The position numbers and the translations under genes are program-made. Positions 3,401 through 24,704 of a stretch of 26,859 nucleotides of DNA are shown here, piece by piece. The notes below the pieces were generated by a model that was not told where the DNA came from, did not search any database, and saw nothing but the letters and a program-made list of their open reading frames with translations. The stretch is from IMG/VR virus record IMGVR_UViG_3300030329_002963, positions 1-26,859 of that record; one strand, 5' to 3'. Position 1 is the first letter of the stretch. The number at the start of each line of letters is the position of its first letter. The stretch comes from a virus.

Positions 3401-3953
3401 CTGCATCAGATAAGATGTTGATTGATTCAGCACCCTCAGTTACTGATGTTCCTTGGTCTGCATGGATCTTGATAGTACCGCTAGTACCTGCATTTTCTCG
3501 TAAATATATAGAGCCTGCGGCATCGTTAGTACTGACTAGATCTATATCTCCAGATGAATCTACCTGAACATCACTAACATCCCAATCAACTGAGCCGTTA
3601 ACATCCAAGATACCTGGAAATGTAACTGAACTTGAAGTTATAGTGCTGTTAGGGGTGATTGTTAAATGCGTTACATACGATCCGGCTGATGCTATATCAT
3701 TACCAATCGTCATGACTCCTGCATCAGCAACATTAAATTTCCACTCGTCTCCTGCATCATCTCCTTCGTCAGCCTTCATGTAAAATATAGCAGCATCTCC
3801 TTCAGCTGCGAGTATCGTAAATTCTGCATGGGCACGACCATTACTGGCATCATGAAGATGACCTGAAGTCGTACTTAGTACATCATCCCTAAGATTGTTA
3901 TATTGACTGGCGGTCGCTTGTTCGCCACTGCTTACGGTACTACTGTTTGCCAT
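444..3953 (-). CDS. Tail fibre protein with two families of internal repeats (1169 residues)
   Basis: Role: probably the receptor-binding fibre or appendage. The N-terminus carries an AxQYNNLRDDVL-like segment followed by GHLHDASNGR (residues about 15-40), a pattern often found at the start of phage fibres. The body is Gly/Ser/Thr/Asp-rich beta structure. Residues about 161-290 hold three copies of a 50-residue repeat with the markers DQGTS, LLSDxGG and DGGT. Residues about 291-450 hold four copies of a 40-residue repeat with IPxNVGxTF, EKIEGD and TDLTIS. A long beta-rich shaft follows. The last 100 residues are different: helical and charged, with a final coiled coil (EFEKRQALEDKVKILESKL), likely a trimerisation region. 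No peptidase or chaperone motif is seen. Start ATG at 3953 follows a G-rich site overlapping the upstream stop. Fibre identity is likely; receptor and host are unknown. Confidence 0.85.
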   Translation of the reverse strand: MANSSTVSSGEQATASQYNNLRDDVLSTTSGHLHDASNGRAHAEFTILAAEGDAAIFYMKADEGDDAGDEWKFNVADAGVMTIGNDIASAGSYVTHLTITPNSTITSSSVTFPGILDVNGSVDWDVSDVQVDSSGDIDLVSTNDAAGSIYLRENAGTSGTIKIHADQGTSVTEGAESINILSDAGGVGIRSTANLANAVNITVDGGTTSTMTLFNDQGTSATEGSASIQLLSDVGGINLKSGLNGANAILLTADGGTSETIVLHADQGTGTGSIKLLSDAGGITFTAGADIELDATNDVNIPANVGLTFGNDAEKIEGDGTDLTISGNNINLTATADVVIPANVGVTFGSGEKIEGDSTDLTVTSGAKINLTATSDVHIPKNVGIVFDDNASEKIESNNTDLTINSGGDINLTATSDINVPQNVGITFGDDGEKIEGDGTDLTISGNIINLSGAVTATGILKTDDATEATSTTDGSLQTDGGLSVVKDAVFGDDIKLLSDSSVIAFGADGDTTLTHTDGTGLTLNSTNKLTFGDAASYIAQSSDGTLRIDGEAIIDLNASTRVDVSADLKVGGEVQTASIGYTDGDNAITIADGGGITVPQAATFSSTISTATGSTIGNLTLANGSITDSSGAIAFGDENLSTTGNLDIDGTTNLDNTDIDGTLVVDGTNISLDSTTTFNIDNSNTSNGITIGTATSGVPISIGHTTSETTVNDNLVITGTVKAKGTAYFGTAGNELSITDSSDDITIAVGQSDKDLTISGNDGGSTVVAQHYDMSGGGISVFGGGTASTADTNTKLYTANAGPINILGTSATDTAIVIGRWSANAEGGTLAFVKDRDGTIGSASTLSDGDEIGKIWFGSGDGAVNAYTYTRTAAIFSAYSDGVTASNDNPAGFKWQLNPGGEDVNHAEVMRLNKDGALFLGDTSNAGTTVGLTINQGANDNEAITLKSSDVAHGYTSKAETDTYAFFEKRNGTNGGLRIEAFQDTDDAASSFDIQMYRRGQPNDLGTAAVSDYGAIDFAVECHNGSNSAVAVDDDKALFSITRRNSSGIHAAFIVNSTGELHSDASATVDVFDEEDDVMLVRAFDLARNKESDKKTLIKSGWDKFANKFEDRLVELGILGKKINEGGMLNLTKLLFLHNGAIFQEFEKRQALEDKVKILESKLQAIGG
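2604..3083 (-). repeat. Four roughly 40-residue coding repeats in the tail fibre (IPxNVG/EKIEGD type)
   Basis: IPANVG, IPANVG, IPKNVG and VPQNVG occur at fibre residues about 301, 340, 380 and 420. Each is followed by an EKIEGD or EKIESN segment and a TDLTI or TDLTV strand. The period is 39-40 residues. Such arrays can change copy number by recombination and so change fibre length. Confidence 0.8.
3084..3473 (-). repeat. Three 50-residue coding repeats in the tail fibre (DQGTS type)
   Basis: DQGTS-type motifs stand at fibre residues about 166, 216 and 266, exactly 50 residues apart. Each is followed by LLSDxGG or ILSDAGG and by an ANAxxxTxDGGT segment. The unit reads as repeated beta-strand layers of a fibre shaft. 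Sequence divergence between units suggests old duplications kept under selection for fold. Confidence 0.8.
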
Positions 3954-3956
3954 GTT

Positions 3957-6389: not shown

Positions 6390-7778
6390 TTAGTAACTCC
6401 AGTCTGGTACTAAAATCCGTCTTTGACCTAAAGGTTGTGAATGTATGCTTTTTCGCTGTATCTCCTCAAAGGCTCTGTTGCGTAATCCTGCATATACATT
6501 GGTATCAAATGTGGCAGAAGCCTGTGCTAAACGCTGATATAGCTCAGCTGCTGCGAAAGCATATAATAGTTCTGTTCTAGGTTTGGCAATCTCCATCGTG
6601 TCAGTCTCTGATGAAACTTCATTCAAATAGTTCTTACCCTGTATTCTGAGTAATTTCAGATTAGGTAGATTATATGGAAAATGTATGGAAGTTCTGTCAG
6701 TAGTCGATTCCATTTCAGGTACATACTGCCAGTTCATAAGAATATCTCCACTTTCCTGTGCCTCGACTCTAGGACCAACAGTCGCTACGGCTTCGTCCAA
6801 ATACACAACAAGCCCTGTACTAGCTGCGGCAGTCATCTCTACACCTATTTCTAGTGTGCTAAGAGTAGTAGCAGAATCTTCATAATGAGTTAATAATTCC
6901 CAACCTGTTCCCTGATGCTGTCCGCCATCTGCCTGCGATCCAAGATGCTCGGTTGAGTTTAATTTTATATAAGTTGAAATAGTAGATGCTTCATTTGAAT
7001 GCACCCATATTTGGAAGTTGATCCTCTGTCCGCTATATGTTCCAGGTGAACTAAATGACTCATACACAGCCCTTTTGGTACCTGTGGTACCATTTGTTAT
7101 CTTTGCTGAGTATTGACCACGAAATACCGCATAGTTAAATGGATTGGTTGTAAGCTCCTCCTGAGCCGCAGTAGCCTCTACAGTCCAAGTACCTGGAGTA
7201 GATGAATTAGTCCAAGTCTCAAATCCTGGATTAGTTAATATATTATCTCCGCTTTCTACAGCTGCTATGCCGTCTTCTATACTAATTCTAGTGGGTCTAT
7301 CTTTTATAGCTGAGGGTAATTCATACCGATATTGATTTTCTGATGTATAAATAGTTTTAGATATAGGCACATGAAGCATTGGAAATGCCTGTACTCTAGC
7401 TGAATTAAGAACCTCACGAAGCATGGTAGGGGAATATTTATGTATCTCAAAATCTACATTGCCTGACTCAGCTGCAAGGTTACTGCCTGATACTGTTATC
7501 TGACCTGCTGAGGCATCATAGGATTTGATTCTTCTGACTACCTGTGCGTTATTAGTACCATGAATAATAACCCAATGGTTTTGAAACAGATCGTCTGTAT
7601 CTCCTGCTGTATCTAAATCATCGAAACCATAATCGGTTAATTCAGTAGATGTTATTGTAGTCCCTGCACCTATAGTAGATGTAGTTGTCCATGCTTCACC
7701 GTCTTTTCCGAGAATCTCAGAGTAGCCCAGATATGCTCCGAACTCTCTGCGTAAGTTCTGTAGTGTAGTTGTAGCCAT
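6390..7778 (-). CDS. Adaptor-like virion protein with a central jelly-roll insert (462 residues)
   Basis: Start ATG 7778 shares its A with the stop of the previous gene (TAATG). The N-terminal part (MATTTLQNLRREFGAYLG) and the C-terminal helical part (PRTELLYAFAAAELYQRLAQAS, then RNRAFEEIQRK) look like the helical head-tail adaptors found in phages. Between them, after an RPTRISIEDG segment, residues about 180-335 begin NPGFETW and end VVYLDEAVATVG. 'NPGFE-W' and 'YLDEA/DV' are typical first and last strands of carbohydrate-binding-type beta sandwiches. A role in joining head and tail, perhaps with a surface-exposed sugar-binding insert, is inferred from this layout and from its place between capsid and tail genes. 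Confidence 0.65.
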   Translation of the reverse strand: MATTTLQNLRREFGAYLGYSEILGKDGEAWTTTSTIGAGTTITSTELTDYGFDDLDTAGDTDDLFQNHWVIIHGTNNAQVVRRIKSYDASAGQITVSGSNLAAESGNVDFEIHKYSPTMLREVLNSARVQAFPMLHVPISKTIYTSENQYRYELPSAIKDRPTRISIEDGIAAVESGDNILTNPGFETWTNSSTPGTWTVEATAAQEELTTNPFNYAVFRGQYSAKITNGTTGTKRAVYESFSSPGTYSGQRINFQIWVHSNEASTISTYIKLNSTEHLGSQADGGQHQGTGWELLTHYEDSATTLSTLEIGVEMTAAASTGLVVYLDEAVATVGPRVEAQESGDILMNWQYVPEMESTTDRTSIHFPYNLPNLKLLRIQGKNYLNEVSSETDTMEIAKPRTELLYAFAAAELYQRLAQASATFDTNVYAGLRNRAFEEIQRKSIHSQPLGQRRILVPDWSY

Positions 7779-8008: not shown

Positions 8009-8287
8009 CTATGCGTAACCTACGTTAACCTTTAAATTTGTTCCTGGTACGTCTACATATATTCCAGTTCCGAAACTGATTGGAGCACCTGTGAAGTCAA
8101 AGAATTGAGTAGAATTAGCAGCGACAGTTATATCTAATATGTCCGTACCTCCGTCAGCAGTAGAATCATTTAATTGAAATGCTCCACCTGTTGCACCTGC
8201 TGAAACTGCTACCCAATAAACTACGCCAGGACTGCTTTTAGCAGCACCGTCACTTGTTTTAATACTGACTGCTGTTACTTGTGGCAT
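8009..8287 (-). CDS. Small beta-rich virion-type protein (92 residues)
   Basis: Start ATG 8287 lies one base from the stop of the preceding gene. The sequence (MPQVTAVSIKTSDGAAKSSPGVVYWVAVSAG... FTGAPISFGTGIYVDVPG) is Gly/Thr/Ala-rich with alternating hydrophobic strands. It carries the 'G-x-Y-V-D-V' type strand common in small phage structural proteins that sit between capsid and tail genes. No signal peptide or membrane helix is seen. A decoration or connector role is possible but not shown. Confidence 0.7.
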   Translation of the reverse strand: MPQVTAVSIKTSDGAAKSSPGVVYWVAVSAGATGGAFQLNDSTADGGTDILDITVAANSTQFFDFTGAPISFGTGIYVDVPGTNLKVNVGYA

Positions 8288-8288
8288 A

Positions 8289-8825
8289 TCATTTACCTCT
8301 TTTAGCTAGATATTTAAGTCTACGTTTGCCTGACCATCTACGTTTCGTATCCCATCCAATTCCAAGATTGTTAGGTTCTGCACCTAGTTCTCTTGGATCA
8401 GGCATATCGAATTTGTCTTTTCTTACATCAACGAAAGTCGGATTACCTGCTCTGTCAGGAATCATAAGTTCCAGACTGCCAGGGTCACCCTGCTTAGGCA
8501 TAATCATCGCATCAGGTGGAGTACCACCCCACTTCTTACTGACAGCAATTCGCCTTTGCAGTTCTGCCCACTCTGCTTCAAAGTCCTTGTTATTGATCTG
8601 GTCAATAGCATCTTTAAAAGCGTTGTCTATTTCTTCTTGTGAATGGACTGCTCCATGTCCGTCATGTTTAAGTTCATTGCACTCTGCCATAGTCTCAGCA
8701 AGCAAAGTAGCTGCTTCCTCTGTTTCTAAAACACAAACCTTTCCATCACCCATAGGTACAAAGTGTGCTACATTAGGATGTTCTTTAGGCCAGTATTCAA
8801 TATAAGCATGTGGAGTTGCAGGCAT
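8289..8825 (-). CDS. Hypothetical late-operon protein (178 residues)
   Basis: Start ATG 8825 shares a base with the stop of the 32-residue gene before it (TAATG), which fixes the start. The N-terminus reads MPATPHAYIEYWPKEHPNVAHF. A charged middle part (DNAFKDAIDQINNKDFEAEW) is probably helical. The C-terminus is very basic (WDTKRRWSGKRRLKYLAKRGK) and could bind nucleic acid or the acidic DNA-filled head. I recognise no family. The opposite strand here also has a long open frame, but the coupling and composition favour this strand. Confidence 0.7.
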   Translation of the reverse strand: MPATPHAYIEYWPKEHPNVAHFVPMGDGKVCVLETEEAATLLAETMAECNELKHDGHGAVHSQEEIDNAFKDAIDQINNKDFEAEWAELQRRIAVSKKWGGTPPDAMIMPKQGDPGSLELMIPDRAGNPTFVDVRKDKFDMPDPRELGAEPNNLGIGWDTKRRWSGKRRLKYLAKRGK

Positions 8826-9004: not shown

Positions 9005-9772
9005 TTACGGAGCTATCTGTAAAAAGATTAGTCCATAATCTCCAGAACCTGTAGGCACAACATTCATCTGTACACCGATTACCTGCTCGTCTTCATTAGT
9101 ACCGTCCCTCTTTAGGTCCTCATAACCACCAGCAGTAGTTGCTCCGCCAACTCTAACATGCTTGCCAAATGTGTCCGCAGTTTGTGAGTTGGAAAGTACA
9201 GCTGCCTCACCCCATGTTTGAAGCCAGCAGTAGTAATCTGCGGTAACAGATGTTGTTGAAACGCCAATAGCTACGTTGGTTACAGTAGTAGGCGATATAA
9301 TAACGTCTTTGTATGTGTTTATACTAAGACCACACAAAGTGTTTGCTGCTGTTGAATCAGTTGCAACCCTAACGGTGTCACCATCGTACAACGTAACTAC
9401 CATACTGTTACCATTAGTTCCTGCTGCATTGCTTGCAATCTTGTAAATAGTTCCTTCGCCAGTACCGTCATTTAGAAAAATGAAACCATCTGCGTACTTG
9501 TCTTTTGCTATAGTTCCTTGGGCTGTAACAGTAATTGTTCCATCTCCAACACTAGCCTGTGCCCCCAAAGGTACATCAACATCATCAGCGGCTGTCGCTG
9601 CTGCTGCTTGTACTATAACGCCTGCATGAAGAGCAGTCCCTGCGTTTTCGGCATATCTAAATGCTCTACCGTCAGGCAAAACCATTCTCGTACCTAAAGC
9701 GTGTAATTTGGTTTCTCCGGTAGCTTTTTCGTCTCCAAAATTACCCCAAATTGTTCCGTATGTAAGTGCCAC
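9005..9772 (-). CDS. Structural protein, head-decoration-like (255 residues)
   Basis: The start codon is GTG at 9772, seven bases after a strong AGGGAGG site. The protein is Gly/Ala/Thr/Val-rich and beta-structured. It begins MALTYGTIWGNFGDEKATGE and ends in a strand-rich GDYGLIFLQIAP. It contains 'R-x-F-R-Y-A-x-N' and 'A-G-x-x-V-Q-A' segments typical of proteins found next to major capsid genes, which are often annotated as capsid decoration or minor capsid proteins. There is no signal peptide or enzymatic motif. Its position in the head block supports a virion role; the exact function is inference. An 81-base non-coding stretch (8924-9004) follows it. Confidence 0.65.
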   Translation of the reverse strand: MALTYGTIWGNFGDEKATGETKLHALGTRMVLPDGRAFRYAENAGTALHAGVIVQAAAATAADDVDVPLGAQASVGDGTITVTAQGTIAKDKYADGFIFLNDGTGEGTIYKIASNAAGTNGNSMVVTLYDGDTVRVATDSTAANTLCGLSINTYKDVIISPTTVTNVAIGVSTTSVTADYYCWLQTWGEAAVLSNSQTADTFGKHVRVGGATTAGGYEDLKRDGTNEDEQVIGVQMNVVPTGSGDYGLIFLQIAP

Positions 9773-9784
9773 AATAGCACCTCC

Positions 9785-10531
9785 CTAATTTTTATTTGTT
9801 AACATCTGCTCCAAGGTCAACGCCCAAACACCTGACCTATGCTTATGAGTTATATGTTGATTAGCAAGCCTGTCTCCATGAAATCCAGTATTATGAATTA
9901 CGCAGAAATACTTGGTCTTCTTGCTTCTCTCAATAACTTCATCCGGCAGCTCAATAGTCGGCTGTTCACTATGATGCAGACAATGTTTTAAGTAACTCTT
10001 CCACGATGAAAACCCAAAGGTATCAACGTGGTTTGTGCAAATATATTTAATTGGAGCAGCTTCCTGTTCCAAATCAGCTTGCAAGATTTCATCAGGAACG
10101 GCATTTCTAAAAACATCAATATCAACTCCGTTTTCAGGAGGACGTAGACGGAAACCTTTCTCGAAGTACGCAGCAAATTGGGATGGATTATTGACTGACA
10201 TACCCTGTGATGTGGGCTGAAAGCCATGATCCACTTCTTCCAATCTGACTGAGGCGTTTTTACCATTACCTTTTTTCCGAACTGTAACAATATGTCGCTG
10301 CCATAAAACGCATCTGCCTGGAGCAGTCCAGAATGGTTCGATACCGTCACGGATGTGCCAGTTATACTCTGATGCAAGCTGTTGCTTTATCTGAGTCCAT
10401 TCGTCTACTCGCCATCTTTCGATGTGCAAACGTAACATTTTTATTTGGCCTTCACGATCAATTTCGCTAAGTCCTTGTTCAAGGTCATAGTCAATATGAA
10501 CGTCCCATTTCTGCAAAGTTGCAAGTGTCAT
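9785..10531 (-). CDS. Late-operon protein with two CHHH zinc-finger-like modules (248 residues)
   Basis: Start ATG 10531 overlaps the previous stop (ATGA) and follows AAGGAG. Residues 1-160 are a mixed domain of unknown type (MTLATLQKWDVHIDYDLEQG...). The C-terminal third has two similar modules: KYICTNHVDTFGF with C165, H168, H183 and H186, and KYFCVIHNTGF with C210, H213, H226 and H229. Both have the aromatic-x-C-x2-H start, a 12-14 residue spacer and an H-x2-H end, as in a C2H2-type finger whose second Cys is His. The gene before it carries two fingers as well. Zinc binding and nucleic-acid or protein contact are inferred. Expression with the capsid genes suggests a virion or assembly role rather than early regulation. 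Confidence 0.65.
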   Translation of the reverse strand: MTLATLQKWDVHIDYDLEQGLSEIDREGQIKMLRLHIERWRVDEWTQIKQQLASEYNWHIRDGIEPFWTAPGRCVLWQRHIVTVRKKGNGKNASVRLEEVDHGFQPTSQGMSVNNPSQFAAYFEKGFRLRPPENGVDIDVFRNAVPDEILQADLEQEAAPIKYICTNHVDTFGFSSWKSYLKHCLHHSEQPTIELPDEVIERSKKTKYFCVIHNTGFHGDRLANQHITHKHRSGVWALTLEQMLTNKN

Positions 10532-11124
10532 GCTGTTCTCCTTCGTTTGTGCCGACTGCGACTTCTTTTACGTTTAGAAGGAGTCACGCTCCGCTCAACT
10601 ACACCGGAAATAGCCCTAGCTACCTGTTCTTTACGCAGGTAATTAGGTAATGATTCTTGCAAGCTGAATTGGTAAATCAACTGTTCTTCGATAATTCCCT
10701 GATGCTTTTCGTAAGCATCCTTAATATTTGCAATGTGCTTTTGCGTAGAATTAGAACGTCCTGTGAATGTAAGGTTACATCCAGTACACGTTGATTCTTT
10801 ATCTACTGCATTAGCGTGTTTTTCGCCTTCTTCTCTGACAGACTTAGCATGTCTTGCAACATCACCGTCAAAACTCGAAGTAAAAGTACACTCGCTGCAT
10901 CTGATAATCACTTTCTTTAAGTAAAGATCATTTGCGGAATTTCTTGAAAATGGCTCTGTCCAGTTTTTTCCAATTACATCCCATAAACGAACTTTATTTT
11001 GAGCATCATCTTCTACAGATGTAATTACTCGGTCACGATTACCGTTTTCAACCTGCTTTCGCAAATCTTTATACTGCGTATTCGATACCTCAAATTCTTT
11101 TGTGTCATCTATCAAAGTCGGCAA
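10528..11124 (-). CDS. Protein with two zinc-finger-like modules and an Arg/Lys tail, TTG start (198 residues)
   Basis: The only possible start is TTG at 11124, eight bases after AAGGA, because a TGA lies upstream in frame and no early Met exists. Residues 76-103 give C76-x2-C79-x12-H92-x10-H103. Residues 113-141 give C113-x2-C116-x13-H130-x10-H141. Both follow an 'I-R-C-S-E-C / T-C-T-G-C-N-L-T-F' type knuckle and so look like two duplicated fingers with an unusually long His-His gap. The last 17 residues (SKRKRSRSRHKRRRTA) are protamine-like. The gene lies directly after the capsid gene and is coupled to a second finger protein, so binding to packaged DNA or a head-assembly role is a reasonable guess. 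No known family is recognised. Confidence 0.65.
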   Translation of the reverse strand: MPTLIDDTKEFEVSNTQYKDLRKQVENGNRDRVITSVEDDAQNKVRLWDVIGKNWTEPFSRNSANDLYLKKVIIRCSECTFTSSFDGDVARHAKSVREEGEKHANAVDKESTCTGCNLTFTGRSNSTQKHIANIKDAYEKHQGIIEEQLIYQFSLQESLPNYLRKEQVARAISGVVERSVTPSKRKRSRSRHKRRRTA

Positions 11125-11135
11125 TGTTCAATTCC

Positions 11136-12023
11136 TTATAAAGTGCTTGCTGTGTCACTTAGAATTTCAACACCGTGGACATCCACTCGTTGTGACTCAC
11201 CCCATTCCTGGAATATGCCGTATTCTATAGCTCTCAAGGAGTTGTCATCTTCCTCTGTAGTTTCAGCTTCGTTAGCCATGACTAATATCATGGAATCGTC
11301 TGCAAAAACCGCTCCTTTTGATGTGTTTCCAGAACTTCTACTGATAACACCGGAATGGAATATCTGGACTCCGTAAAGTCTGTCATTACCTTTCCACCAT
11401 CGTTGAATCATGTCATCGCCAAAACCGGCAGGTCTTCCACCTGCTGCTGTACCTGGGTCTGATATGTCCAATATGATGTCGCTAATCTGCTCGATATGCA
11501 GAGAAGCTCTTAAAGGCATTGGTGCAGGACCATATGATGAACTGTTGTCTGTCATAAGGTATGCAACTGCTCCTCTAAAGTGTGTAACGTCAAGAGTGCC
11601 GCTACCTGGCGATGATTTTGTAAACGAATCATAAAGCGTTACAACGTCATTAGCCATCTTTCGCCTGAGAGAGTTAGCAAGTAGAGTTCCTGTAGTCGAA
11701 ACCACGTTAGAATCTCCCTGCCTTCTGATCAATCGCTTTGAAACTGTAGCTATGATGCCATGTTCACTTGGAGTGATCGATAAACTGTTTGTCACTAACT
11801 GCTCTGACTGAGATAAATCAACGCCTTCAGACAATGCAGAAGCATTACTCATTCTGGCGTAAGTTAGAACGTCCCATTGTTTGTGTCCCTGTGGAATACG
11901 TTCATTAGTTATCAAATCTGGGTCTGGTGCAGCCGGCTCAAATGCTTCTTTAGCAGAAGCAACAAGTATTTTTTGTCCAGAGGACATATTACTGGTTGAA
12001 GAAATTGATAAGCCTGTAGCCAT
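11136..12023 (-). CDS. Probable major capsid protein (HK97-like fold expected, 295 residues)
   Basis: It follows the scaffold-like gene after 19 bases, with a strong GGGAGG site before ATG 12023. The sequence shows features of capsid proteins of N4/P22-like short-tailed phages: an N-terminal segment with IPQGHKQWDVLTYARM; a SLSITPSEHGIIATVSKRLI strand region; a helical NSLRRKMANDVVTLYDSFT 'spine' segment; GGRPAGFGDDMIQRWWKGND; and a C-terminal QEWGESQRVDVHGVEILSD strand. Length matches small HK97-type capsids. I identified it by this pattern and by gene order (portal, virion proteins, scaffold, capsid), not by a clear motif, because capsid proteins lack catalytic residues. Confidence 0.8.
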   Translation of the reverse strand: MATGLSISSTSNMSSGQKILVASAKEAFEPAAPDPDLITNERIPQGHKQWDVLTYARMSNASALSEGVDLSQSEQLVTNSLSITPSEHGIIATVSKRLIRRQGDSNVVSTTGTLLANSLRRKMANDVVTLYDSFTKSSPGSGTLDVTHFRGAVAYLMTDNSSSYGPAPMPLRASLHIEQISDIILDISDPGTAAGGRPAGFGDDMIQRWWKGNDRLYGVQIFHSGVISRSSGNTSKGAVFADDSMILVMANEAETTEEDDNSLRAIEYGIFQEWGESQRVDVHGVEILSDTASTL

Positions 12024-12042
12024 ATCATCCTCCCTTTAAATT

Positions 12043-12798
12043 TTATTGTAGTTTTTGTACCAAAGTCTGATACTCAGCCTTTTCTATCTTGCCCTCGATA
12101 TATGCACTTCGTACATCATCCAGGTTTTTATAACTAGGAGCTGCTTTACCGCTCGGTTGGTCTACCGGTGGCGATACTGTAGTAGGCTTCTGAGTCTGTG
12201 GCTGCTGTGGACTAGGCTGTTGTGGAGGAGTACCTCCTTTAGCCCTTACAGCGTTGCCTACCGATTCAGCAAACTGTGCACTACGCTGCTCTGGGGTCAG
12301 ACTGTTAGTCGGATCAAGAGCACTGTAACGCAAGTTAGGGTCGTTTCTATCTAAACCCATACTTTCAACGAATTTATAGATTTGCTCCCACTGCTGTTGT
12401 GCCTGGTCAGGTGTTGCCTGCTGCTGAGTTTGACTCGGTTGAGGCTGTGCCTGTTGCACGTTCTGCTTTCTGAGCTCTTCCATTTCGTTGAGTAGTGGGG
12501 CAACGACCGCCCTTTGCTCCTCATCCAGATTTTCAAGATATGCCTTTTTTTCCATCTCATTTCTCATGCCGCTGAACTGTTGTTCCGCCCATGTTTGAGT
12601 ATCCCTTCTGATGGCATTAAGGCCATTGTCAACAAGTCCCTGTAAACCACGATTCTCTGACCTCAGCTGCTGTAATTCGTTTTGAATGTTCGTCAGCTGG
12701 TCAGGTGTGACGTACTGCGGAGTGGCTGCTACTTCGCCCTGCTCCTCGTCTAGGCTCTGCTGATCCTGTGTTACCTCGTCATTCTGGTTGTTAACCAT
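12043..12798 (-). CDS. Probable head scaffolding protein (251 residues)
   Basis: ATG 12798 follows AGGAGG. The protein is extremely hydrophilic and Gln/Pro/Glu-rich. Residues about 30-75 and 85-115 are coiled-coil (LQQLRSENRGLQGLVDN; EEQRAVVAPLLNEMEELRKQ). Residues about 115-140 and 190-215 are low-complexity Gln/Pro runs. The C-terminus is a short charged helix (DVRSAYIEGKIEKAEYQTLV). An elongated helical, Gln-rich protein immediately before the capsid gene fits the internal scaffold that guides procapsid assembly and is then removed. It is the first gene after the terminator at 12841-12887, so its transcription may be set separately. Confidence 0.75.
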   Translation of the reverse strand: MVNNQNDEVTQDQQSLDEEQGEVAATPQYVTPDQLTNIQNELQQLRSENRGLQGLVDNGLNAIRRDTQTWAEQQFSGMRNEMEKKAYLENLDEEQRAVVAPLLNEMEELRKQNVQQAQPQPSQTQQQATPDQAQQQWEQIYKFVESMGLDRNDPNLRYSALDPTNSLTPEQRSAQFAESVGNAVRAKGGTPPQQPSPQQPQTQKPTTVSPPVDQPSGKAAPSYKNLDDVRSAYIEGKIEKAEYQTLVQKLQ

Positions 12799-17333: not shown

Positions 17334-19436
17334 TTATGTTCTCCTTCCTGTAGGCATTCCGCCTCCAAATATTCTTGGTGCAGCAGTTTGTATACCGCCT
17401 GGAGTGACTCCTGCCGCTGCTCTTCCAAATTGCTGAGGGGTAATTCCACCTGCAAAACCCAACATATTTGTAAGTGTCTGTAAAGCCTGTGGATCAAGTT
17501 GTCCGAGTTGACCCATAGTTGGAATACCGCCTTGAAAGAACTGTCCGATTCCCTGCTGTGGAGTCTGAGGTGCAGTTTGAGCAGGCTGCTGAGTTGTTGG
17601 AACCTGCATACCAAGTCCCTGCAACTGCTGAGGCATTCTGCCTCCGGTCAAAGCTGTTAAAGCACCAAATGCGGCAGGGTTCTGAAGCATGAGTGCAAGG
17701 TTTTGGCTTGCAAGCTGCTGCCTCTGAAAATCCATTTGGCTTGCCAACATCGTGCGTTCAAGTTCAATTTCTTTATCTCTTAATGCTTCATTAGCTTCTT
17801 CAGCTCTTATTTGTGCAGCTAGCCTTCTGTCCGCTAATGTAGTAGCTTCGTCTTCGTTATATCCAAGTTCTATCAGTCTGATTTTTTCAGCTTCCTGATT
17901 AGACCTTACCAACTCAGTTATTTTACTATTGGCAGTAGCCCTATCTAAATTTCGCTGTGTAATATCTTCAGCCAGTTTTCGTGACTCTAAAGTCTGTAAT
18001 ATAGGTTCTCCATCTGGACCTCTTTTAATTATGTTATTTTCATCTCTAACATAAGCTCCGGCAGGCGAAGTACCTAATATGGAAAGAAGTCTTTGGCTTT
18101 GATCTCCTATACGCTGATTTACTTCCTCATCGTATCGTTTTTCGTCCATATCAAGTTGATCCATCCACTGCTGCTTGGCAAAGGTTTTAAATCCTGTACT
18201 AGGATGAACTCCCATAATGGATGCTTGCTGCAAATCAGCCTGAGCATCTGCAAGCTCTTTTTCATGCTCAAGTTTTTCACGAGCCAAAGTCTTGCTTCTA
18301 CCGCCTATATCACTGTCAAAAAATCCTGTTTGGTCTGCCTGTTGTATATTTTTTTCAAGTTCTAACCTGTCTCTTGCTAAGGTGTTTGCATTATTCTGCA
18401 TTCTTCCTGTAATCTGAGCTTCCGTCATCTTTTGGTCGAAATCCTGCTGCTTTTTAGCTAAGGTGTCTTTATCTCCAAATTTACCGGTAGCCTGTGCAGT
18501 CTGTATCTTTCTGTCCCATTCCTGCTGCTCTGTAGCTCTTTTTTGACCTTCTACTGTTACTGCTCTGTCTAACAATGCTCTGCTTCTGTCAGTCATAACA
18601 GGAGAACCTGCTACAAGTTGACCTTCAATTTCCATTTGAGGAGTATGAAATTTCAAATACTGACCTATATTAGCCATATCGAAATTAGGATTGTTTACCT
18701 GACCCCATGCTTTGTTAAAATCTTCGTCAGCCCAATCGGCATCGCCCTGCTGTGCAGTAGTTGCAGTAGGTGCTGTTGGTGTCTCTACTAAAGGTGTTCC
18801 TGCCATTTGTTGTTGTTTTTGTTGTGCTTCTCCTGCTGCAAAAGCAGTCTGTGCCTCTGGATCACCTGTTAACCTTTTCTTTATATCAAACTCCTCTTGC
18901 TCTTCTTCAGTTCCTGGATATTGAACTTTAAGAGGTGTTAGTACCTGTTGTCCTGTTCTAGGGTCTATTGTCGGAGCTCCAGGGTCATAAGTTCTTTCAA
19001 CTTTGGGTTGCGGCTCATATCCTCCTAAACCTAAAGACCGTTGTAATTCCACAAGTCCTGCCATTTCCTCTGGTGTTTCAGCTGTTTGCACACCACCTGG
19101 AATAATTCTGGGACTATAAAAGTCCTGACCTGGAACAACATTCATGACCGAACCTGGCAACGCAACTTCAGCAGGTGCAGCTGTTTGACCGTTACCGTTG
19201 GTTACAGGCTGTCCTCCAGGCTGTTGATACAAGGGGTTTTGCTGCATGATATTTGGTGTTTCACCGGTTTTTAAATAATAATCGTCCGATTCCACAGGCT
19301 GAACTATACCAGACATTCCGCTAACATCAGGAGAAGGAACTCCGCCCTGGTCTTCTAATGTTTTAGCTAATGCCTTTTCCTGTGCTTCTCTTGCAGCCTG
19401 TTCGGCAGGATTAAATTCTTCATATCCGTTTGCCAT
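17334..19436 (-). CDS. Gln-rich coiled-coil structural protein with helical repeats (700 residues)
   Basis: ATG 19436 follows GGAGGTT. Residues 1-230 are Pro/Gln/Gly-rich and probably disordered. Residues about 300-410 contain a repeated helix-turn unit of about 35 residues with the signature A-Q-x-T-G followed by D-T-L-A-x-x-x-x-x-x-E/D (for example IQTAQATGKFGDKDTLAKK and MTEAQITGRMQNNANTLARD). Residues up to about 610 are long charged helices (REKLEHEKELADAQADLQQ; RAEEANEALRDKEIELERTM). The C-terminal 90 residues are Gln/Gly/Pro-rich. The same 'ATG...DTLA' helical repeat style is widespread in phage virion proteins next to portal genes. It probably works with the 1420-residue protein as an internal or neck protein. 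Function is otherwise unknown. Confidence 0.65.
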   Translation of the reverse strand: MANGYEEFNPAEQAAREAQEKALAKTLEDQGGVPSPDVSGMSGIVQPVESDDYYLKTGETPNIMQQNPLYQQPGGQPVTNGNGQTAAPAEVALPGSVMNVVPGQDFYSPRIIPGGVQTAETPEEMAGLVELQRSLGLGGYEPQPKVERTYDPGAPTIDPRTGQQVLTPLKVQYPGTEEEQEEFDIKKRLTGDPEAQTAFAAGEAQQKQQQMAGTPLVETPTAPTATTAQQGDADWADEDFNKAWGQVNNPNFDMANIGQYLKFHTPQMEIEGQLVAGSPVMTDRSRALLDRAVTVEGQKRATEQQEWDRKIQTAQATGKFGDKDTLAKKQQDFDQKMTEAQITGRMQNNANTLARDRLELEKNIQQADQTGFFDSDIGGRSKTLAREKLEHEKELADAQADLQQASIMGVHPSTGFKTFAKQQWMDQLDMDEKRYDEEVNQRIGDQSQRLLSILGTSPAGAYVRDENNIIKRGPDGEPILQTLESRKLAEDITQRNLDRATANSKITELVRSNQEAEKIRLIELGYNEDEATTLADRRLAAQIRAEEANEALRDKEIELERTMLASQMDFQRQQLASQNLALMLQNPAAFGALTALTGGRMPQQLQGLGMQVPTTQQPAQTAPQTPQQGIGQFFQGGIPTMGQLGQLDPQALQTLTNMLGFAGGITPQQFGRAAAGVTPGGIQTAAPRIFGGGMPTGRRT

Positions 19437-19438
19437 GT

Positions 19439-19633
19439 TTAACCTCCAGGCAGTAATTTAGAAAGCTCTTGAATAATGTCATCCACAGGCTGACCTGCAA
19501 CCATTGTGGGCTTAGGCTTTTTAGGCTTTCCAAGTATGCCTTCAAATATTTCTTCGGTCTGTATACTAGCTGTATCGGCAGCTATATCCACTGGTGTCTG
19601 TAAATGATTTCTGTCGGTTCTTTTTTTAGCCAT
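19439..19633 (-). CDS. Small hypothetical protein downstream of portal (64 residues)
   Basis: ATG 19633 lies one base after the portal stop, with GGAG overlapping the last portal codons. The next gene starts just after its stop. The product is charged (MAKKRTDRNHLQTPVDIAAD...), with a KPKKPKP linker and a short amphipathic C-terminal helix (VDDIIQELSKLLPGG) that could be a docking peptide. No family is recognised. Compact placement between portal and a virion gene suggests a head-assembly or minor virion role. Confidence 0.7.
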   Translation of the reverse strand: MAKKRTDRNHLQTPVDIAADTASIQTEEIFEGILGKPKKPKPTMVAGQPVDDIIQELSKLLPGG

Positions 19634-19634
19634 A

Positions 19635-21488
19635 TTATTCTCCTATAGTCTCACCGCTTGGCATTCCTACTGCTCCGCCTGTAGGTCCACCAAGTTCAGC
19701 CCCTAGCTGATCTATACCGCCCATACCCTGTGGATATACGCTTGGTCTTCCCTGTTGAGAAGCTACTCTTGCAGCTTGTATGTTAGCTTCTCCTGGTCTT
19801 TGTAACTGTGCTCCGCCTATATTTCTACTACCTACGTTTCCTGTCTCGCCTGTAGGTGAAGCCGCCTGCTCCATCTGTGTAGGCAGTCCTACTTTCTGTA
19901 ATAGTAAAGCAGTCTGCTGCTGTATAAATTCAGGTGTATTAAGCAATTGTTCGGCTCTAATCTGCATCTGTTCTTCCATTGGATCGGTTATACCACTTCT
20001 TCTTTGAGCCTCATATAATGAAATTATCCCTGCACCTTTAAGCCTCATGGCAAGCAGAGCCTCTCTTTCACGCTCTTCCGGTGCTTCTGCCTTAACCCTG
20101 ACAGTATTTTCGTGATAACCACGAATCTGGTCAGGACCTATCGTCTGATCGAAATTATGTATCTCATTTCTGCCGTATACAGTAACTCTGCCGCCTGCCT
20201 TGTTTTCTATCAGCATAAGCCATTTTTTATTTATATCTTCCAACGCATGTCTTAATCCGTCAGCCACTCCCTGAAATACCAATCTGCCCATTCCGGCAAG
20301 TACGCTTAATCCAAACCCTGAAGAAACACCTGTAGGTCTTACTCCTCTTATCACGTTTGGAAAAGTAGCTTCCTCTATCTTGGTTTGTATCATAGATAAC
20401 TGCTGATATATATCCGGTGGTATCTGCACCATTGGAGATGGTCTTACGTCCACTCCTGGAAGCACGATATTCTTACCGCCAAAGAGTTCATAGTCACTTC
20501 TGACTCTTTCTGCGTTCTGCTCAGGTCCATAGAAATCTATAGTTCTATACGCTACTGTTCTGACCAACGCTCCTATCTGAGTCATTAATCTTGCTTCCTC
20601 GTCTAATAGATTATGCACAGTATTAAGTACGCCCCTGTAGCGTTCTTCAGGGCTACCGTCTTCAAATGTATAGCTGTGAACAGGAATTATAGGCGTATAT
20701 GGCAGATGACCATAACCATGACGGTGAGGTCCCCACACTATCTGTCTGTCACAGACATACATCACCCAATCTTCGTCCCAATACTCGAACCACTCAGCTT
20801 GAGATGCAGATGGGTTTTCAGGTTTCCATTCAGGATATTTCTGACTAACGTCATCTACGTCACGTTCCATAAATTCAATAACCCACTTTGTTTTGGTTTT
20901 AGAGTCATCCCATACCAGATTGCGTGGATTAATCACGTTAGCAGCAAAGGGGAACTTTATGCTTCGGTCTTCCATGAAATCGTTAAGAGCACGTTTATAG
21001 TCAGCTTCATCCTCGAAGTCATCGACTACAGGGGCATTAGGCCAATTATCTGAGTCCCACATGGATTTAATCCAACCTACGCCATATAGGAAACTCTGTC
21101 TTACAGCTGTTCTAAGCACCGGCTTTTTCATCATGAGCCAAATGCCTGTCAAAGTCTTTTGAATCCGTTCCGCCCTTGCTCTTGATCTAGGAGAGGAAGG
21201 TACATCTATAGCTAGATTATTTACATCCACATGGTCGCTAGCCGTATTGACTATAGCACCTGCCGTAGCAGGCCATACAGGATCTATACCTTCAGGAGCA
21301 GGCACAGTCCTATTGCCCATGTAATATTCCTCTTCAGTCTCGCACTGTTTATGAAAATCCTGATAATAGGCTTTCTGCCTATCGAACAGGTCAAGTACGT
21401 CATCTAATTCAGGTGCATCCGAGTTTTCAGGATCACCAGGCATCCATTCGGTTATTTCTTCCATCACAGGTTTTTCTGTAGTTACCAT
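19635..21488 (-). CDS. Portal protein (617 residues)
   Basis: Its start overlaps the terminase stop (TAATG). The N-terminal region has the long helices and Trp/Tyr-rich segments of portal proteins (DLFDRQKAYYQDFHKQCETE; GIWLMMKKPVLRTAVRQSFL followed by GVGWIKSMWD). It continues with WDDSKTKTKWVIEFMERD-type strands, a long alpha-helical stem region (LLDEEARLMTQIGALVRTVA), and a helical C-terminus ending in a Gly/Gln-rich tail that probably lies inside the head. The portal forms the twelve-part ring through which DNA enters and leaves the capsid and to which the terminase binds. The order TerL-portal supports the call. Length is in the upper range of short-tailed phage portals. Confidence 0.8.
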   Translation of the reverse strand: MVTTEKPVMEEITEWMPGDPENSDAPELDDVLDLFDRQKAYYQDFHKQCETEEEYYMGNRTVPAPEGIDPVWPATAGAIVNTASDHVDVNNLAIDVPSSPRSRARAERIQKTLTGIWLMMKKPVLRTAVRQSFLYGVGWIKSMWDSDNWPNAPVVDDFEDEADYKRALNDFMEDRSIKFPFAANVINPRNLVWDDSKTKTKWVIEFMERDVDDVSQKYPEWKPENPSASQAEWFEYWDEDWVMYVCDRQIVWGPHRHGYGHLPYTPIIPVHSYTFEDGSPEERYRGVLNTVHNLLDEEARLMTQIGALVRTVAYRTIDFYGPEQNAERVRSDYELFGGKNIVLPGVDVRPSPMVQIPPDIYQQLSMIQTKIEEATFPNVIRGVRPTGVSSGFGLSVLAGMGRLVFQGVADGLRHALEDINKKWLMLIENKAGGRVTVYGRNEIHNFDQTIGPDQIRGYHENTVRVKAEAPEEREREALLAMRLKGAGIISLYEAQRRSGITDPMEEQMQIRAEQLLNTPEFIQQQTALLLQKVGLPTQMEQAASPTGETGNVGSRNIGGAQLQRPGEANIQAARVASQQGRPSVYPQGMGGIDQLGAELGGPTGGAVGMPSGETIGE

Positions 21489-22915
21489 TAGCTAATCCCC
21501 AATTCTTCAGCTCTTTTGGCTATTTTTTCGAGTCTTCTAAGTCTCATCAGTTTCGGTCCTTCTAAATTACCCTGATTCCAACCGTTATTAGCTTCAGCCT
21601 GCGTAGGCACATATCTTGAATTGCCTATAGGTCTGAAGGAACTGGTCACAGGTCTACTGGAATCAGCCACTTCTAAAGCAAGTGCAAGTGCAAATACGGC
21701 ATCGTCATGTTCACCTGGAGGTGCTTCCGCCTTATATCTTCCGCCAGGCATTTTTCTATACTGAAAGGCTCTAAGCTGTCTTAAAAGCCTTTTTTCATTA
21801 AAGAACGAAATAGTCTGTCTTTCCAAAGCTACTACAAGCTGCTGAAGCAGATGTTCTCTTGAGGACTGAGAAAATATATACGGAGATACAGGAACTCCTG
21901 CTTCTATGAGTTCACTCATAAATACGTCACCTATACCTGTAGCATCAATACATATCTGTTCTATACCCCATTCCTCTACAAGCCTGATAACGTGTTCTCT
22001 CTGAGCTACCCATTCGGTACCGTCATCCCATCCGTGATAATGCACCATTTTTCTTTCTGCTGCATCCATTATCACCATAACTGAGGGATCCATCTTTCTA
22101 CCAAGGTCAAGCCCTGCTATATACCTTGCACCTGGAACAGGTCCCTGCATGGGGTCACCTGCTATATTGGCATCTATATTAGTGAAATAACCGGCTGAGT
22201 CAGAAAATTCAGCAAGGTACATACGTCTCCAGACCCTTTCAGGCAACAGCTCCTTGTCAGATTCTATCTCCGCCTTCTGTTCTGCGTTAAGCAAAGGGTT
22301 TTCAAAGCTTGTAGCCTTAAAGGAAGAAAATCCTCGTTCACCTCTTTCGCCTGCTACAAACGCTCTTCTGAACCAATGATCAGGATAAAGAGCAGGAATA
22401 CCTTCAAATATACCGTAACCAAGTCTTTCAGGGCTTCTAAGCGTAGGCAATAGCTTTTCAAAAGCCTTATCGGATATATCCTGAGCTTCTGATATCCATA
22501 GAAAATCCAGACCTGCCGTTTGTAGGCTGTCCGGATCATGAGCTGATTTAACCTCTATTTGTCCCCAAGTTCTTTTATCGCTGCCTTTTAGGTGCATCAG
22601 CCAAGAGTCCTGCTTAATACCGGCAGGAGATATAAACTCATTAGGGAAGAAAGCAATCATTTCGTTCCAAATCTGCCTAGCCTGCGGAAAATTCGGTGTT
22701 ACTATCCAAGCATGAAAAGGCGGTATCAAATGAGATTCCACCTCTATTTCAAGGCTTTCTACATATCTTCTGATTAATTCCCATAACGCAAAGCGAGATT
22801 TACCCCACCTACGTCCTATCTCCAAAACCTTGATTTTAGCATCAACTCCATGCACTCTCTGCTGACCTGGATGAGGTTTATAAAAATCACTTAAATTGAG
22901 CTGTTGTTGAACCAT
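21488..22915 (-). CDS. terL: Large terminase subunit: packaging ATPase and headful/cos nuclease
   Basis: The ATPase domain shows the Walker A GRRWGKS (residues 34-40) and the Walker B segment LDFLWISEA (136-144, acidic pair with E143). The C-terminal RNase H-like nuclease shows three expected acidic positions: D270 in AGLDLGRKMDPS, D324 in ICIDATGIGD, and D404/D405 in GEHDDAVFALALA. Length (475) is normal. It cuts concatemeric DNA and drives it through the portal. The ATG at 22915 directly follows the TAA of the overlapping second frame in the methyltransferase gene, and an AGGAG site lies seven bases upstream inside both upper frames. The methyltransferase frame itself overlaps TerL by 29 bases. 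Confidence 0.95.
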   Translation of the reverse strand: MVQQQLNLSDFYKPHPGQQRVHGVDAKIKVLEIGRRWGKSRFALWELIRRYVESLEIEVESHLIPPFHAWIVTPNFPQARQIWNEMIAFFPNEFISPAGIKQDSWLMHLKGSDKRTWGQIEVKSAHDPDSLQTAGLDFLWISEAQDISDKAFEKLLPTLRSPERLGYGIFEGIPALYPDHWFRRAFVAGERGERGFSSFKATSFENPLLNAEQKAEIESDKELLPERVWRRMYLAEFSDSAGYFTNIDANIAGDPMQGPVPGARYIAGLDLGRKMDPSVMVIMDAAERKMVHYHGWDDGTEWVAQREHVIRLVEEWGIEQICIDATGIGDVFMSELIEAGVPVSPYIFSQSSREHLLQQLVVALERQTISFFNEKRLLRQLRAFQYRKMPGGRYKAEAPPGEHDDAVFALALALEVADSSRPVTSSFRPIGNSRYVPTQAEANNGWNQGNLEGPKLMRLRRLEKIAKRAEELGIS

Positions 22916-24248
22916 TTAAGACTCCTGACCTTTCGATACAGAGTCTGAGTGCGATAGCTCCTGCCTGCCAAGCGACTGCGTTCCCAAGGGCTTTAAGTCT
23001 GTCCATCCTATTAGCCATTTTCCCATCATCAGATATTCTACAAAAAGCGGGTTCAATCTCCGGCATGATACTGAGCAGGTACTCCCATCCGGATGAGTCT
23101 GAGGGTCCTGGTGGGTAGTTTGGGAATTGATCCTCGTAGTATCCTCTAGATTCAGAGAGTGGGAGTTCTTCCCATCTTTCGTCTTTCTCCTGCCTGTATG
23201 AGTCATCTCTATATCCGTGTGTACAGTCTCCTGTGTTGTCGGAGTCGGCCATTTCGTCACAGCTGTGGGAAGTGTCACTGAATGCATCGATCCTTCTTTT
23301 ATCTGAGTCGATTTCAGATTCCCTGTGTATGTATCCGCTACTGTCGGAGTCGGCCAGTTCCTTGCAACAGGACCGAGATTGTCCTGTCTGTTTTCTCTTA
23401 TTCTTGCACTCGACTTGTGTTCGGATGAGTTCGGTGTCGGCCATTTTCCTGTTTCCACAACATCTTTCAGCTTGACTCCCCATCTTACTCCCTGTTCGTT
23501 CTTTCTGCTGAAATGACCGTTGTGCATCTCCACATTCTTTACTGTTCCCCCTTCCGTGTCGCTCACTCTCGGAGTCGGCCAGTTTTGGGCAATCGCTGCC
23601 GCTCTGTCCAAAGTTATCTGGACATGCTTTCCAGTCTTTGGGTTGTATGCTCTCTCCCCTGTCTTCGCCGGTTTTCCTTCCTTCGTCACTAATGTTTTTA
23701 AAAATTCTCCCTTCCCTGCGGTTTGATTCGTTGGAGTCGGCCAGTTTCCTATAGGCAAAGCAGAACCACCTTTTTCTTCTGTGGGGAGCTCCTGCATCGT
23801 CAGCTCCGACAATTTCCCATTCCGCATCGAACCCCTCTTCGGCAAGGTCCCTGAGTACTGTGTACACATAGGGCTGCCGTCCTTCGCCATCTCCAGAAAG
23901 GAGACCTGGTACGTTCTCCAGGAAGACGTACTCCGGTCGAGCCATGCGAATGACTCTGAGGGTGTCCGGCCACATGTTCCTATCGTCTGATTCACCTTTT
24001 CTCTCTCCTGCTACAGAAAACGGCTGACACGGAAATCCACCAACCACCATGTCAGTCTTTTCCCATTTAAATTTCCTTATATCATCGAATATCTCCGCTT
24101 TGTCCAGATATCCGTCCTTCATCCTCGCCCTTAAAACCTTCTGACAGAATCCGTCTATCTCCACATACACTTCCGTCTCCGCACCTAAAACAGACCTCAC
24201 CGCCAAATCCAAAGCTCCTATTCCGCTGAACAGTGATATATATTTCAT
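22887..24248 (-). CDS. DNA cytosine-5 methyltransferase with LADS-repeat region (453 residues)
   Basis: It transfers a methyl group from S-adenosylmethionine to carbon 5 of cytosine. Visible motifs are: motif I SLFSGIGALDLAV (5-17); motif IV GGFPCQPFSVAG with catalytic C74; motif VI ENVPGLLS (111-118); motif VIII APHRRKRWF (154-162); and motif X RLKALGNAVAWQAG (417-430). Between VIII and X the usual target-recognition region is replaced by charged, low-complexity sequence with five LADS/MADS/MADT motifs (residues 169, 223, 269, 298, 333). A classical motif IX is not obvious in this frame. The gene sits between small and large terminase genes and may protect phage DNA from host restriction or mark DNA for packaging. 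The site specificity cannot be read from the sequence. Confidence 0.9.
   Translation of the reverse strand: MKYISLFSGIGALDLAVRSVLGAETEVYVEIDGFCQKVLRARMKDGYLDKAEIFDDIRKFKWEKTDMVVGGFPCQPFSVAGERKGESDDRNMWPDTLRVIRMARPEYVFLENVPGLLSGDGEGRQPYVYTVLRDLAEEGFDAEWEIVGADDAGAPHRRKRWFCFAYRKLADSNESNRREGRIFKNISDEGRKTGEDRGESIQPKDWKACPDNFGQSGSDCPKLADSESERHGRGNSKECGDAQRSFQQKERTGSKMGSQAERCCGNRKMADTELIRTQVECKNKRKQTGQSRSCCKELADSDSSGYIHRESEIDSDKRRIDAFSDTSHSCDEMADSDNTGDCTHGYRDDSYRQEKDERWEELPLSESRGYYEDQFPNYPPGPSDSSGWEYLLSIMPEIEPAFCRISDDGKMANRMDRLKALGNAVAWQAGAIALRLCIERSGVLNGSTTAQFK
22916..23995 (-). CDS. Overprinted reading frame inside the methyltransferase gene: WPTP-repeat protein (359 residues)
   Basis: This is a second frame lying wholly within the methyltransferase gene. 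It starts with GTG 23995 after an AGGAG site nine bases upstream, and its TAA (22918-22916) abuts the TerL ATG. The product starts MNQTIGTCGRTPSESFAWLD and has an STSSWRTYQVSFLE segment. It has five WPTP motifs (residues 85, 139, 185, 214, 249) and near the end LNPLFVEYLM...GWTDLKP (314-336). Each WPTP is read from exactly the same bases as an L/MADS or MADT motif of the methyltransferase. The 'W-R-T-x-Q' start, WPTP units and 'NPxFVEYLM...GWTDL' end match, from memory, a protein type often annotated as hypothetical in phages. Whether it is translated is unproven; it may be a conserved by-product of a repeat-containing gene. Confidence 0.55.
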   Translation of the reverse strand: MNQTIGTCGRTPSESFAWLDRSTSSWRTYQVSFLEMAKDGSPMCTQYSGTLPKRGSMRNGKLSELTMQELPTEEKGGSALPIGNWPTPTNQTAGKGEFLKTLVTKEGKPAKTGERAYNPKTGKHVQITLDRAAAIAQNWPTPRVSDTEGGTVKNVEMHNGHFSRKNEQGVRWGVKLKDVVETGKWPTPNSSEHKSSARIRENRQDNLGPVARNWPTPTVADTYTGNLKSTQIKEGSMHSVTLPTAVTKWPTPTTQETVHTDIEMTHTGRRKTKDGKNSHSLNLEDTTRINSQTTHQDPQTHPDGSTCSVSCRRLNPLFVEYLMMGKWLIGWTDLKPLGTQSLGRQELSHSDSVSKGQES

Positions 24249-24271: not shown

Positions 24272-24523
24272 TTAATCGTTCCACTTAAATATTGGCGTAT
24301 ACTTTCCCACATACGCACCTTCGGTGTTAAAAGTAAAATACTCCATCGCATCCTCGTAGCTCATCCCATCGTTCTCCATAAACACCTCAATACACTTTTC
24401 ACTCGAATAGACAGCAACCTTATTACCGTTTCTACTACCAACACCTATAATGGCCTTGTCTAGCCCATCGGCCAACATAGCCTCCGGATTAACCTCAATT
24501 AATCGTCCTGTAACCTTTCTCAT
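24272..24523 (-). CDS. Small conserved phage protein of unknown function (83 residues)
   Basis: I chose ATG 24523 rather than an ATG 54 bases earlier because it follows a GGGGAAAG site and reduces the overlap with the preceding gene from 83 to 29 bases. The product begins MRKVTGRLIEVNPEAMLADG, continues with AIIGVGSRNGNKVAVYSSEK, and has a GMSYEDAMEYFTFNTEGAYV segment near the end. This 'LIEVNPEAMLADGLD...GMSYEDA.E...FNT.GA.VG..TP.F' arrangement is one I recognise as widespread in phages, but it has no known function. Its position between the terminase small subunit and the methyltransferase suggests late or packaging-linked expression. Confidence 0.75.
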   Translation of the reverse strand: MRKVTGRLIEVNPEAMLADGLDKAIIGVGSRNGNKVAVYSSEKCIEVFMENDGMSYEDAMEYFTFNTEGAYVGKYTPIFKWND

Positions 24524-24704
24524 CTTTCCCCAAGCTATGCAGCCATAAATATTCCTTCGTATCCTTCCACCCTGCATTATCTAAATCCATCGGCAATACA
24601 TTGATCATCTGCTTCCTATGCCCACACTTCTCACATACCCCAACCGAATACCTGCCGTCAGGCAACCCAATCAAATAACTATGTACGCACTCAGTCTTTG
24701 CCAC
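24495..24704 (-). CDS. Small putative zinc-binding protein (69 residues)
   Basis: The start is GTG 24704, inside the last codons of the small-terminase gene (14-base overlap), and the ribosome site is weak, so translation is probably coupled. C6 and H8 in ECVHSYLIG and C24-x2-C27 in GVCEKCGHRK could form one small zinc ribbon. The C-terminal half (GWKDTKEYLWLHSLGKDEKG) is aromatic and charged. Its size and coupling to the terminase suggest a DNA- or protein-binding accessory, but no family is recognised. Confidence 0.65.
   Translation of the reverse strand: MAKTECVHSYLIGLPDGRYSVGVCEKCGHRKQMINVLPMDLDNAGWKDTKEYLWLHSLGKDEKGYRTIN

Follow-up and report, generated by a model that had tools for sequence, protein, structure and literature searches.

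An overprinted gene pair in a viral genome probably encodes two subunits of a cytosine-5 DNA methyltransferase with modular recognition cassettes

Introduction

In the cytosine-5 (C5) DNA methyltransferase EcoHK31I, the gene of the small subunit lies within that of the large subunit in a different frame, and the same applies to M.EaeI. The C5 methyltransferases of the Bacillus phages SPR, phi3T and SPbeta hold tandem recognition modules, of a few dozen residues each, between motifs VIII and IX. The present study concerns a locus on the minus strand of an IMG/VR virus record (IMGVR_UViG_3300030329_002963), of which the whole stretch of 26,859 bases was analysed and is referred to here as the window. 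At this locus the gene of a C5 methyltransferase (alpha) contains a complete second reading frame (beta) that encodes a protein with WPTP repeats. The position of beta, inside alpha and in a different frame, is like that of the small subunit of EcoHK31I, and the SPR, phi3T and SPbeta enzymes offer a precedent for the array of cassettes found in beta, although these enzymes are single chains with no second frame. The results indicate that alpha and beta are very probably two subunits of one C5 DNA methyltransferase, encoded by overprinted genes, and that the recognition subunit is modular.

M.EcoHK31I (YGGCCR) is an active two-polypeptide C5 enzyme in which motifs I-VIII and X are on the large subunit and motif IX is on the small subunit, with the target recognition domain predicted in the large subunit (PMC3404938). 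Judged from this published description, alpha and beta show the same partition of motifs. The window pair differs in having its recognition cassettes in beta, and M.EcoHK31I is a single characterised restriction-modification enzyme for which no cassette array or repeat joints were reported. M.AquI (CYCGRG) also consists of two chains, the first of which stops after the variable region while the second carries the recognition region and motifs IX and X (PMC3404938). It resembles the window pair in having two chains, the second with the recognition region and motif IX, but its motif X is on the second chain whereas that of the window is in alpha, so the window pair is not of the M.AquI type. An M.AquI-like form was found at the loci L111 and L154 and in Arthrobacter phage Andrew.

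The same pair is present in Paenibacillus phage Diva (gp49/gp50), where it is known from annotation alone; the record lists gp50 as hypothetical with the remark 'g49 internal gene', and no role or wider family was proposed in the records and papers found. The literature searched (on overlapping and overprinted genes, genes inside other genes, EcoHK31I, EaeI and multispecific enzymes) did not describe this family. The wide spread of the family, its array of cassettes in the second frame and the use of a dual-coding repeat as a joint appear to be undescribed in that literature.

Organisation of the locus

An earlier note on this DNA, made from the letters alone, had described a 359-codon open frame inside the methyltransferase gene, and this frame was recovered entirely within alpha (Table 1). 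The AGGAG that the note had placed nine bases 5' of the GTG of beta was also located. The hexamer CGGCCA was found at all five of the positions given for it (23246, 23351, 23438, 23576 and 23738), and at 5/5 of these sites the same bases read LADS, MADT or MADS in alpha and WPTP in beta. CGGCCA occurs at 23967, 24469 and 26719 as well; these three lie outside the repeat pattern. The alanine of the five repeat sites is encoded by GCC in every case, as against 3/26 elsewhere in alpha, so the bases at these sites obey the WPTP reading. In 5000 synonymous shuffles of alpha, the open +1 frame never reached 364 codons (longest 349) and five WPTP motifs never occurred (mean 0.09, maximum 2).

The TAA of beta (22916-22918) directly adjoins the ATG of the gene for the terminase large subunit (TerL), as had been reported; this ATG sits within the end of alpha, and the TerL call is backed by a PHROG terminase. 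The suggestion that beta couples the translation of TerL would not apply generally. An abutting TerL start was also seen in close relatives, but other pairs precede other genes; the pair of phage Diva is followed by a MazG gene and not by TerL.

Selection on both reading frames

An earlier stop count had been made on open reading frames (ORFs) that were defined as stop-free and was biased by construction, so the count was repeated on loci selected by alpha and over a fixed interval. Forty-four methyltransferases (the window and relatives found by alpha only) were chosen regardless of frame 2, the interval started behind the PCQ motif and ended ahead of motif X, and the expected values were taken from synonymous shuffles. 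Frame +1 contained 2 stops against 176 expected, so that the second frame is kept open in these homologues rather than freely broken. Frame +2 contained 576 stops against 617 expected, and in three monomeric controls frame +1 contained 44 against 40 expected.

The substitution patterns, which the note had recommended as a check, were concordant with this. Among 58 independent close pairs, the differences at alpha codon positions 1:2:3 were distributed 24:17:59% upstream of the overlap, 41:20:39 within it and 20:20:60 downstream, and the rate of third-position differences fell from 0.25 to 0.11 within the overlap. This indicates constraint on both frames there, and not on alpha alone. When changes in 42 pairs were classed by their effect in both frames, omega_beta in the overlap was 0.45 (0.35-0.56), while omega_alpha was 0.55 (0.44-0.67) in the overlap compared with 0.27 outside it. 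Both frames are, on these estimates, under purifying selection.

Matches of at least 4 bases to the Shine-Dalgarno (SD) sequence preceded 48% of the likely starts of beta, compared with 13% of control ATG/GTG codons. An origin of the second frame by chance or codon bias was ruled out by the shuffles, the frame-2 controls and the substitution tests. The idea of an overprinted pair with both frames selected is thus strongly supported by the conservation of the +1 frame, the stop counts and the substitution patterns.

Distribution of the gene pair

A scan of viral contigs with alpha returned 55 loci, in nearly all of which there was a +1 ORF that had the same motifs at its start and at its end. 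Scans with beta alone returned at least 437 relatives from contigs of viruses and 141 from those of bacterial genomes, and 80 of each were taken further. Alpha lay over beta, with beta in the +1 frame, at 214 of the 222 loci with a beta match, among them 157 of the 160 that had been retrieved with beta alone; some contigs were fetched twice, so that these counts are of loci and not of independent lineages. Among genomes taken from two bacterial classes, beta was present in 9/274 and 6/196, with the same +1 offset in all 15.

The search for WPTP proteins encoded apart from any methyltransferase, another check that had been proposed, found none except for one fragment of beta (L166, 2500-2860) for which no alpha was found and which is possibly a decayed copy. 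At another locus (L061, 2648-3701) a single stop splits beta in two, and this may also be a decayed copy. Beta is unannotated in Burkholderia phage BcepC6B, Salmonella phage SW3, Klebsiella phage KlebP_265, Lactobacillus phage Lc-Nu and phage C75C1. The motifs of beta are kept across 20-40% identity, including in contigs of 34-38% GC. Taken together, these sequences indicate that the pair is old and widespread.

Motif partition and homology of beta

Of the C5 motifs, alpha has I-VIII and X, among them FSGIG (motif I), the PCQ loop of the catalytic site (GGFPCQPF), ENV, HRRKRW (motif VIII) and RLKALGNAV (motif X). The earlier note could not find motif IX in the main frame and saw a resemblance to it in the end of the second frame, and the motif check agreed on both points. 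Motif IX was found in none of the alphas of 217 pairs, the window included, while motif X was present in 210 of these alphas and an end like motif IX in 198 of the betas; this is the layout of M.EcoHK31I. In the alignment of betas, the other proteins end like LQPAFVEWMMGFPIGWTDL, and L036 has KLTPKEKERLMGFPENWT, which is a textbook motif IX. The betas of L035 and L036 carry this textbook motif at the site of the motif IX region of the window beta. Three monomeric relatives keep a LTPREWARLQGFP motif IX within their own frame. The complete C5 methyltransferase motif set is therefore present only in the pair jointly, with motif X in alpha and the cassettes and motif IX in beta.

Single-chain enzymes provided the link between beta and the recognition region. 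In gp71 of Mycobacterium phage WillSterrel, motifs I-VIII, segments with LLPTP, motif IX and motif X follow one another in one frame, and the beta profile matched the region from LLPTP to motif IX with an E-value of 8e-18. This protein has the same motif order as the pair and a homologous region of cassettes and motif IX, but differs in being one chain, with cassettes, IX and X in a single frame, and its +1 frame retains only the part that corresponds to the N-terminus of beta. At L111 and L154 the beta frame runs on through motif IX into motif X and alpha ends after motif VIII, and gp43/gp44 of Arthrobacter phage Andrew are organised similarly. In WillSterrel, Jarcob and Andrew, the methyltransferase chain has motif IX and LPTP segments of its own. 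Because of WillSterrel, L111/L154 and Andrew, the WPTP cassettes and the GxPxGW end are taken to represent the C5 recognition region and motif IX. Since beta would hold the motif IX and the recognition region that alpha is without, it most likely makes up the other half of the enzyme and is not an accessory protein. The proposal of the note that the second product could assist the enzyme can be sharpened accordingly.

The N-terminal domain of beta is conserved and has no in-frame counterpart in the single-chain WillSterrel enzyme; perhaps it docks to alpha. In WillSterrel (L237, 1552-2083) the +1 frame retains a 177-codon ORF which matches the N-terminal part of beta (E 9e-20). At L042 (2214-3392), L045 and L058, motif I (YGELCAGIGG...) is in the beta frame upstream of beta and the remainder of alpha keeps to its usual frame, which might mean that alpha is broken, that a frameshift occurs or that these loci are organised differently.

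In a set of 94 diverse betas, all 94 matched phrog_1008 in PHROG, and no model in Pfam or NCBIfam matched. A sequence search of the PDB with the beta profile gave no match.

Cassettes and the dual-coding repeat

A single 11-bp repeat, TGGCCGAC(T/A)CC, gives LADS when read in the alpha frame and WPTP when read in the beta frame. The distance from one repeat to the next in the window and its close relatives is 72-162 bp and always a multiple of 3. The order of the cassettes differs between the window and its nearest relative, L002, such that window cassettes 2, 3 and 4 correspond to L002 cassettes 6, 2 and 5. Exact matches of 146, 68 and 84 nt between the two start at, or within a few bases of, a repeat, and a shared upstream block of 370 nt stops just past a repeat. 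Reordering has thus taken place with its breakpoints at the repeat.

Cassette families recur at different positions in unrelated phages. For the first cassette of the window, compared with L085, L105 and L109, identity was 60-71% in the beta frame and 25-40% in the alpha frame. Mean identity was 0.59 in the beta frame compared with 0.49 in the alpha frame, over 4575 cassette pairs below 85% identity, many of them from related loci. Given the higher identity in the beta frame, it is mainly beta that shapes the content of the cassettes. The cassettes are modular and recurring.

Table 1. Features of the alpha/beta locus, with positions in the window.
Feature	Position	Strand	Evidence
Alpha, cytosine-5 DNA methyltransferase, 453 aa	22887..24248	minus	PF00145, E 2.8e-41; phrog_363
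Beta, WPTP protein, 359 aa, GTG start, +1 frame; predicted target-recognition cassettes and motif IX	22916..23995	minus	
AGGAG 9 bases upstream of the beta GTG, putative ribosome-binding site	24005..24009	minus	
TerL, terminase large subunit	21488..22915	minus	phrog_2, E 1.3e-38
Alpha motif VIII (HRRKRW)	23766..23783	minus	translation
Alpha motif X (DRLKALGNAV)	22974..23003	minus	translation
Beta motif IX region, LNPLFVEYLMMGKWLIGWTDL	22994..23056	minus	beta alignment
Dual-coding repeat 1, TGGCCGACTCC (beta WPTP, alpha LADS)	23733..23743	minus	
Dual-coding repeat 2, TGGCCGACTCC; start of exact 146-nt match to reordered L002 DNA	23571..23581	minus	
Dual-coding repeat 3, TGGCCGACACC (alpha MADT)	23433..23443	minus	
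Dual-coding repeat 4, TGGCCGACTCC	23346..23356	minus	
Dual-coding repeat 5, TGGCCGACTCC	23241..23251	minus	
Cassette 1, 162 bp, KEGKPAKTGERAYNPKTGKHVQITL type; relatives in L085, L105, L109, L122, L131	23582..23743	minus	
Cassette 2, 138 bp; identical to L002 cassette 6	23444..23581	minus	
Cassette 3, 87 bp; ~98% identical to L002 cassette 2	23357..23443	minus	
Cassette 4, 105 bp; matches L002 cassette 5	23252..23356	minus	
Last cassette, reaching motif IX; common to L001, L003, L004	23057..23251	minus	

Other features of the window

Immediately upstream of the methyltransferase gene, two ORFs on the minus strand (24272-24577 and 24495-24704) share 83 bases. Seven large ORFs downstream of TerL (in 444-6389, 9005-12798 and 17334-21488) had no PHROG match at an E-value of 0.001, and the region 6390-7778 had a weak match to a tail fibre family of PHROG. 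At 8281-8825, an ORF of 174 aa on the plus strand (8281-8805) is antisense to one of 178 aa on the minus strand (8289-8825).

Discussion

That alpha and beta are two subunits of one overprinted C5 methyltransferase with a modular recognition subunit is considered highly probable. This proposal is grounded directly in the conservation and selection of both frames, the partition of the motifs, the homology between beta and the recognition region in single-chain enzymes and the reordering of cassettes with breakpoints at the repeat. One mRNA with two starts would yield both proteins, with beta translated as a separate chain from its own ribosome-binding site inside alpha, and the two would then assemble into one methyltransferase. 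Alpha would contribute the binding of S-adenosylmethionine, catalysis by the PCQ loop and motif X, which would complete its own fold. Beta would contribute the target-recognition region and motif IX, the cassettes led by WPTP reading the DNA. The LADS stretch of alpha may be mainly a linker that carries the frame from motif VIII to motif X. Cassettes would be gained, lost and reordered at the 11-bp repeat, which would act as a joint; with cassette lengths that are multiples of 3, both frames stay open through recombination. The phage genome is probably methylated at one or more sites, against host restriction.

If each cassette had one specificity, the enzyme would be multispecific and could guard the phage from restriction. 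The chances seem evenly divided on a combinatorial recognition array of this kind, in which one-target cassettes would be swapped between phages at the dual-coding repeat, re-aiming the enzyme and leaving both proteins intact.

Several observations weigh against these proposals. The case for coding in both frames consists of sequence tests. The AlphaFold2 models of the betas of the window and of L016 were of low confidence and a structural search with them gave no match, so sequence homology is the basis for the recognition role. None of the cassettes could be assigned a known specificity. The approximately 600 segments cut from all betas, 1-8 per beta, were obtained with a heuristic pattern that takes in some N-terminal pieces.

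It is possible, although rather doubtful, that the two-subunit enzyme is real but has a single specificity, and that the cassettes are a tolerant linker which varies by recombination at the repeats. The range in cassette number, from 1 to 8, is concordant with this explanation, as are the weak structure predictions and the failure to match a cassette with a known specificity. However, cassette families are 60-70% conserved in the beta frame across unrelated phages, well above the alpha frame, and a passive linker would not need such constraint; moreover, the cassettes occupy the position of the recognition region in single-chain relatives.

A role for beta outside the enzyme, as a regulator, an anti-restriction factor or a translation coupler to the next gene, is improbable. 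The N-terminal domain without an in-frame match in the single-chain enzyme would fit such a role, and so would the beta stop that, in the window and its close relatives, abuts the start of TerL. Against it, motif IX and LPTP segments belong to the methyltransferase chain in WillSterrel, Jarcob and Andrew, no alpha has a motif IX of its own, the next gene varies between pairs, and beta without alpha is practically never seen.

Fusion of alpha and beta through programmed frameshifting, in which translation would enter the beta frame past motif VIII and return to the alpha frame ahead of motif X, is very improbable. Single-chain versions such as WillSterrel gp71 exist, and motif I is in the beta frame in L042, L045 and L058, but SD signals are enriched at the likely starts of beta, and motif X, which lies in the alpha frame again, would demand two opposite shifts.

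Finally, the explanation that the second frame is no gene but a by-product of the alpha protein sequence and codon use can be dismissed: L/M-A-D-S/T written as CTG/ATG GCC GAC TCC/ACC does read WPTP, and the alpha amino-acid sequence alone lowers the +1 stops to about 4 expected over 320-360 codons, but the deficit of +1 stops is absent from the +2 frame and the monomeric controls, omega_beta is below 1, the motifs of beta persist at low identity and low GC, and the GCC codon of the repeat alanines is rare elsewhere in alpha.

Very few C5 methyltransferases are known that consist of two chains and have motif IX on a small polypeptide of its own. The pair of subunits proposed here suggests that the split arrangement is common in phages and prophages, with more than 200 loci from Gram-positive, Gram-negative and environmental hosts. 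Several records annotate only one of the two genes, so that an entry named 'DNA cytosine methyltransferase', if cloned alone, would be half an enzyme. The pair also represents a long, old and well-supported overprint on the same strand, for which the monomeric relatives are built-in controls for evolution in two frames. The sharing of cassettes between phages opens their DNA specificity to testing by methylome sequencing.

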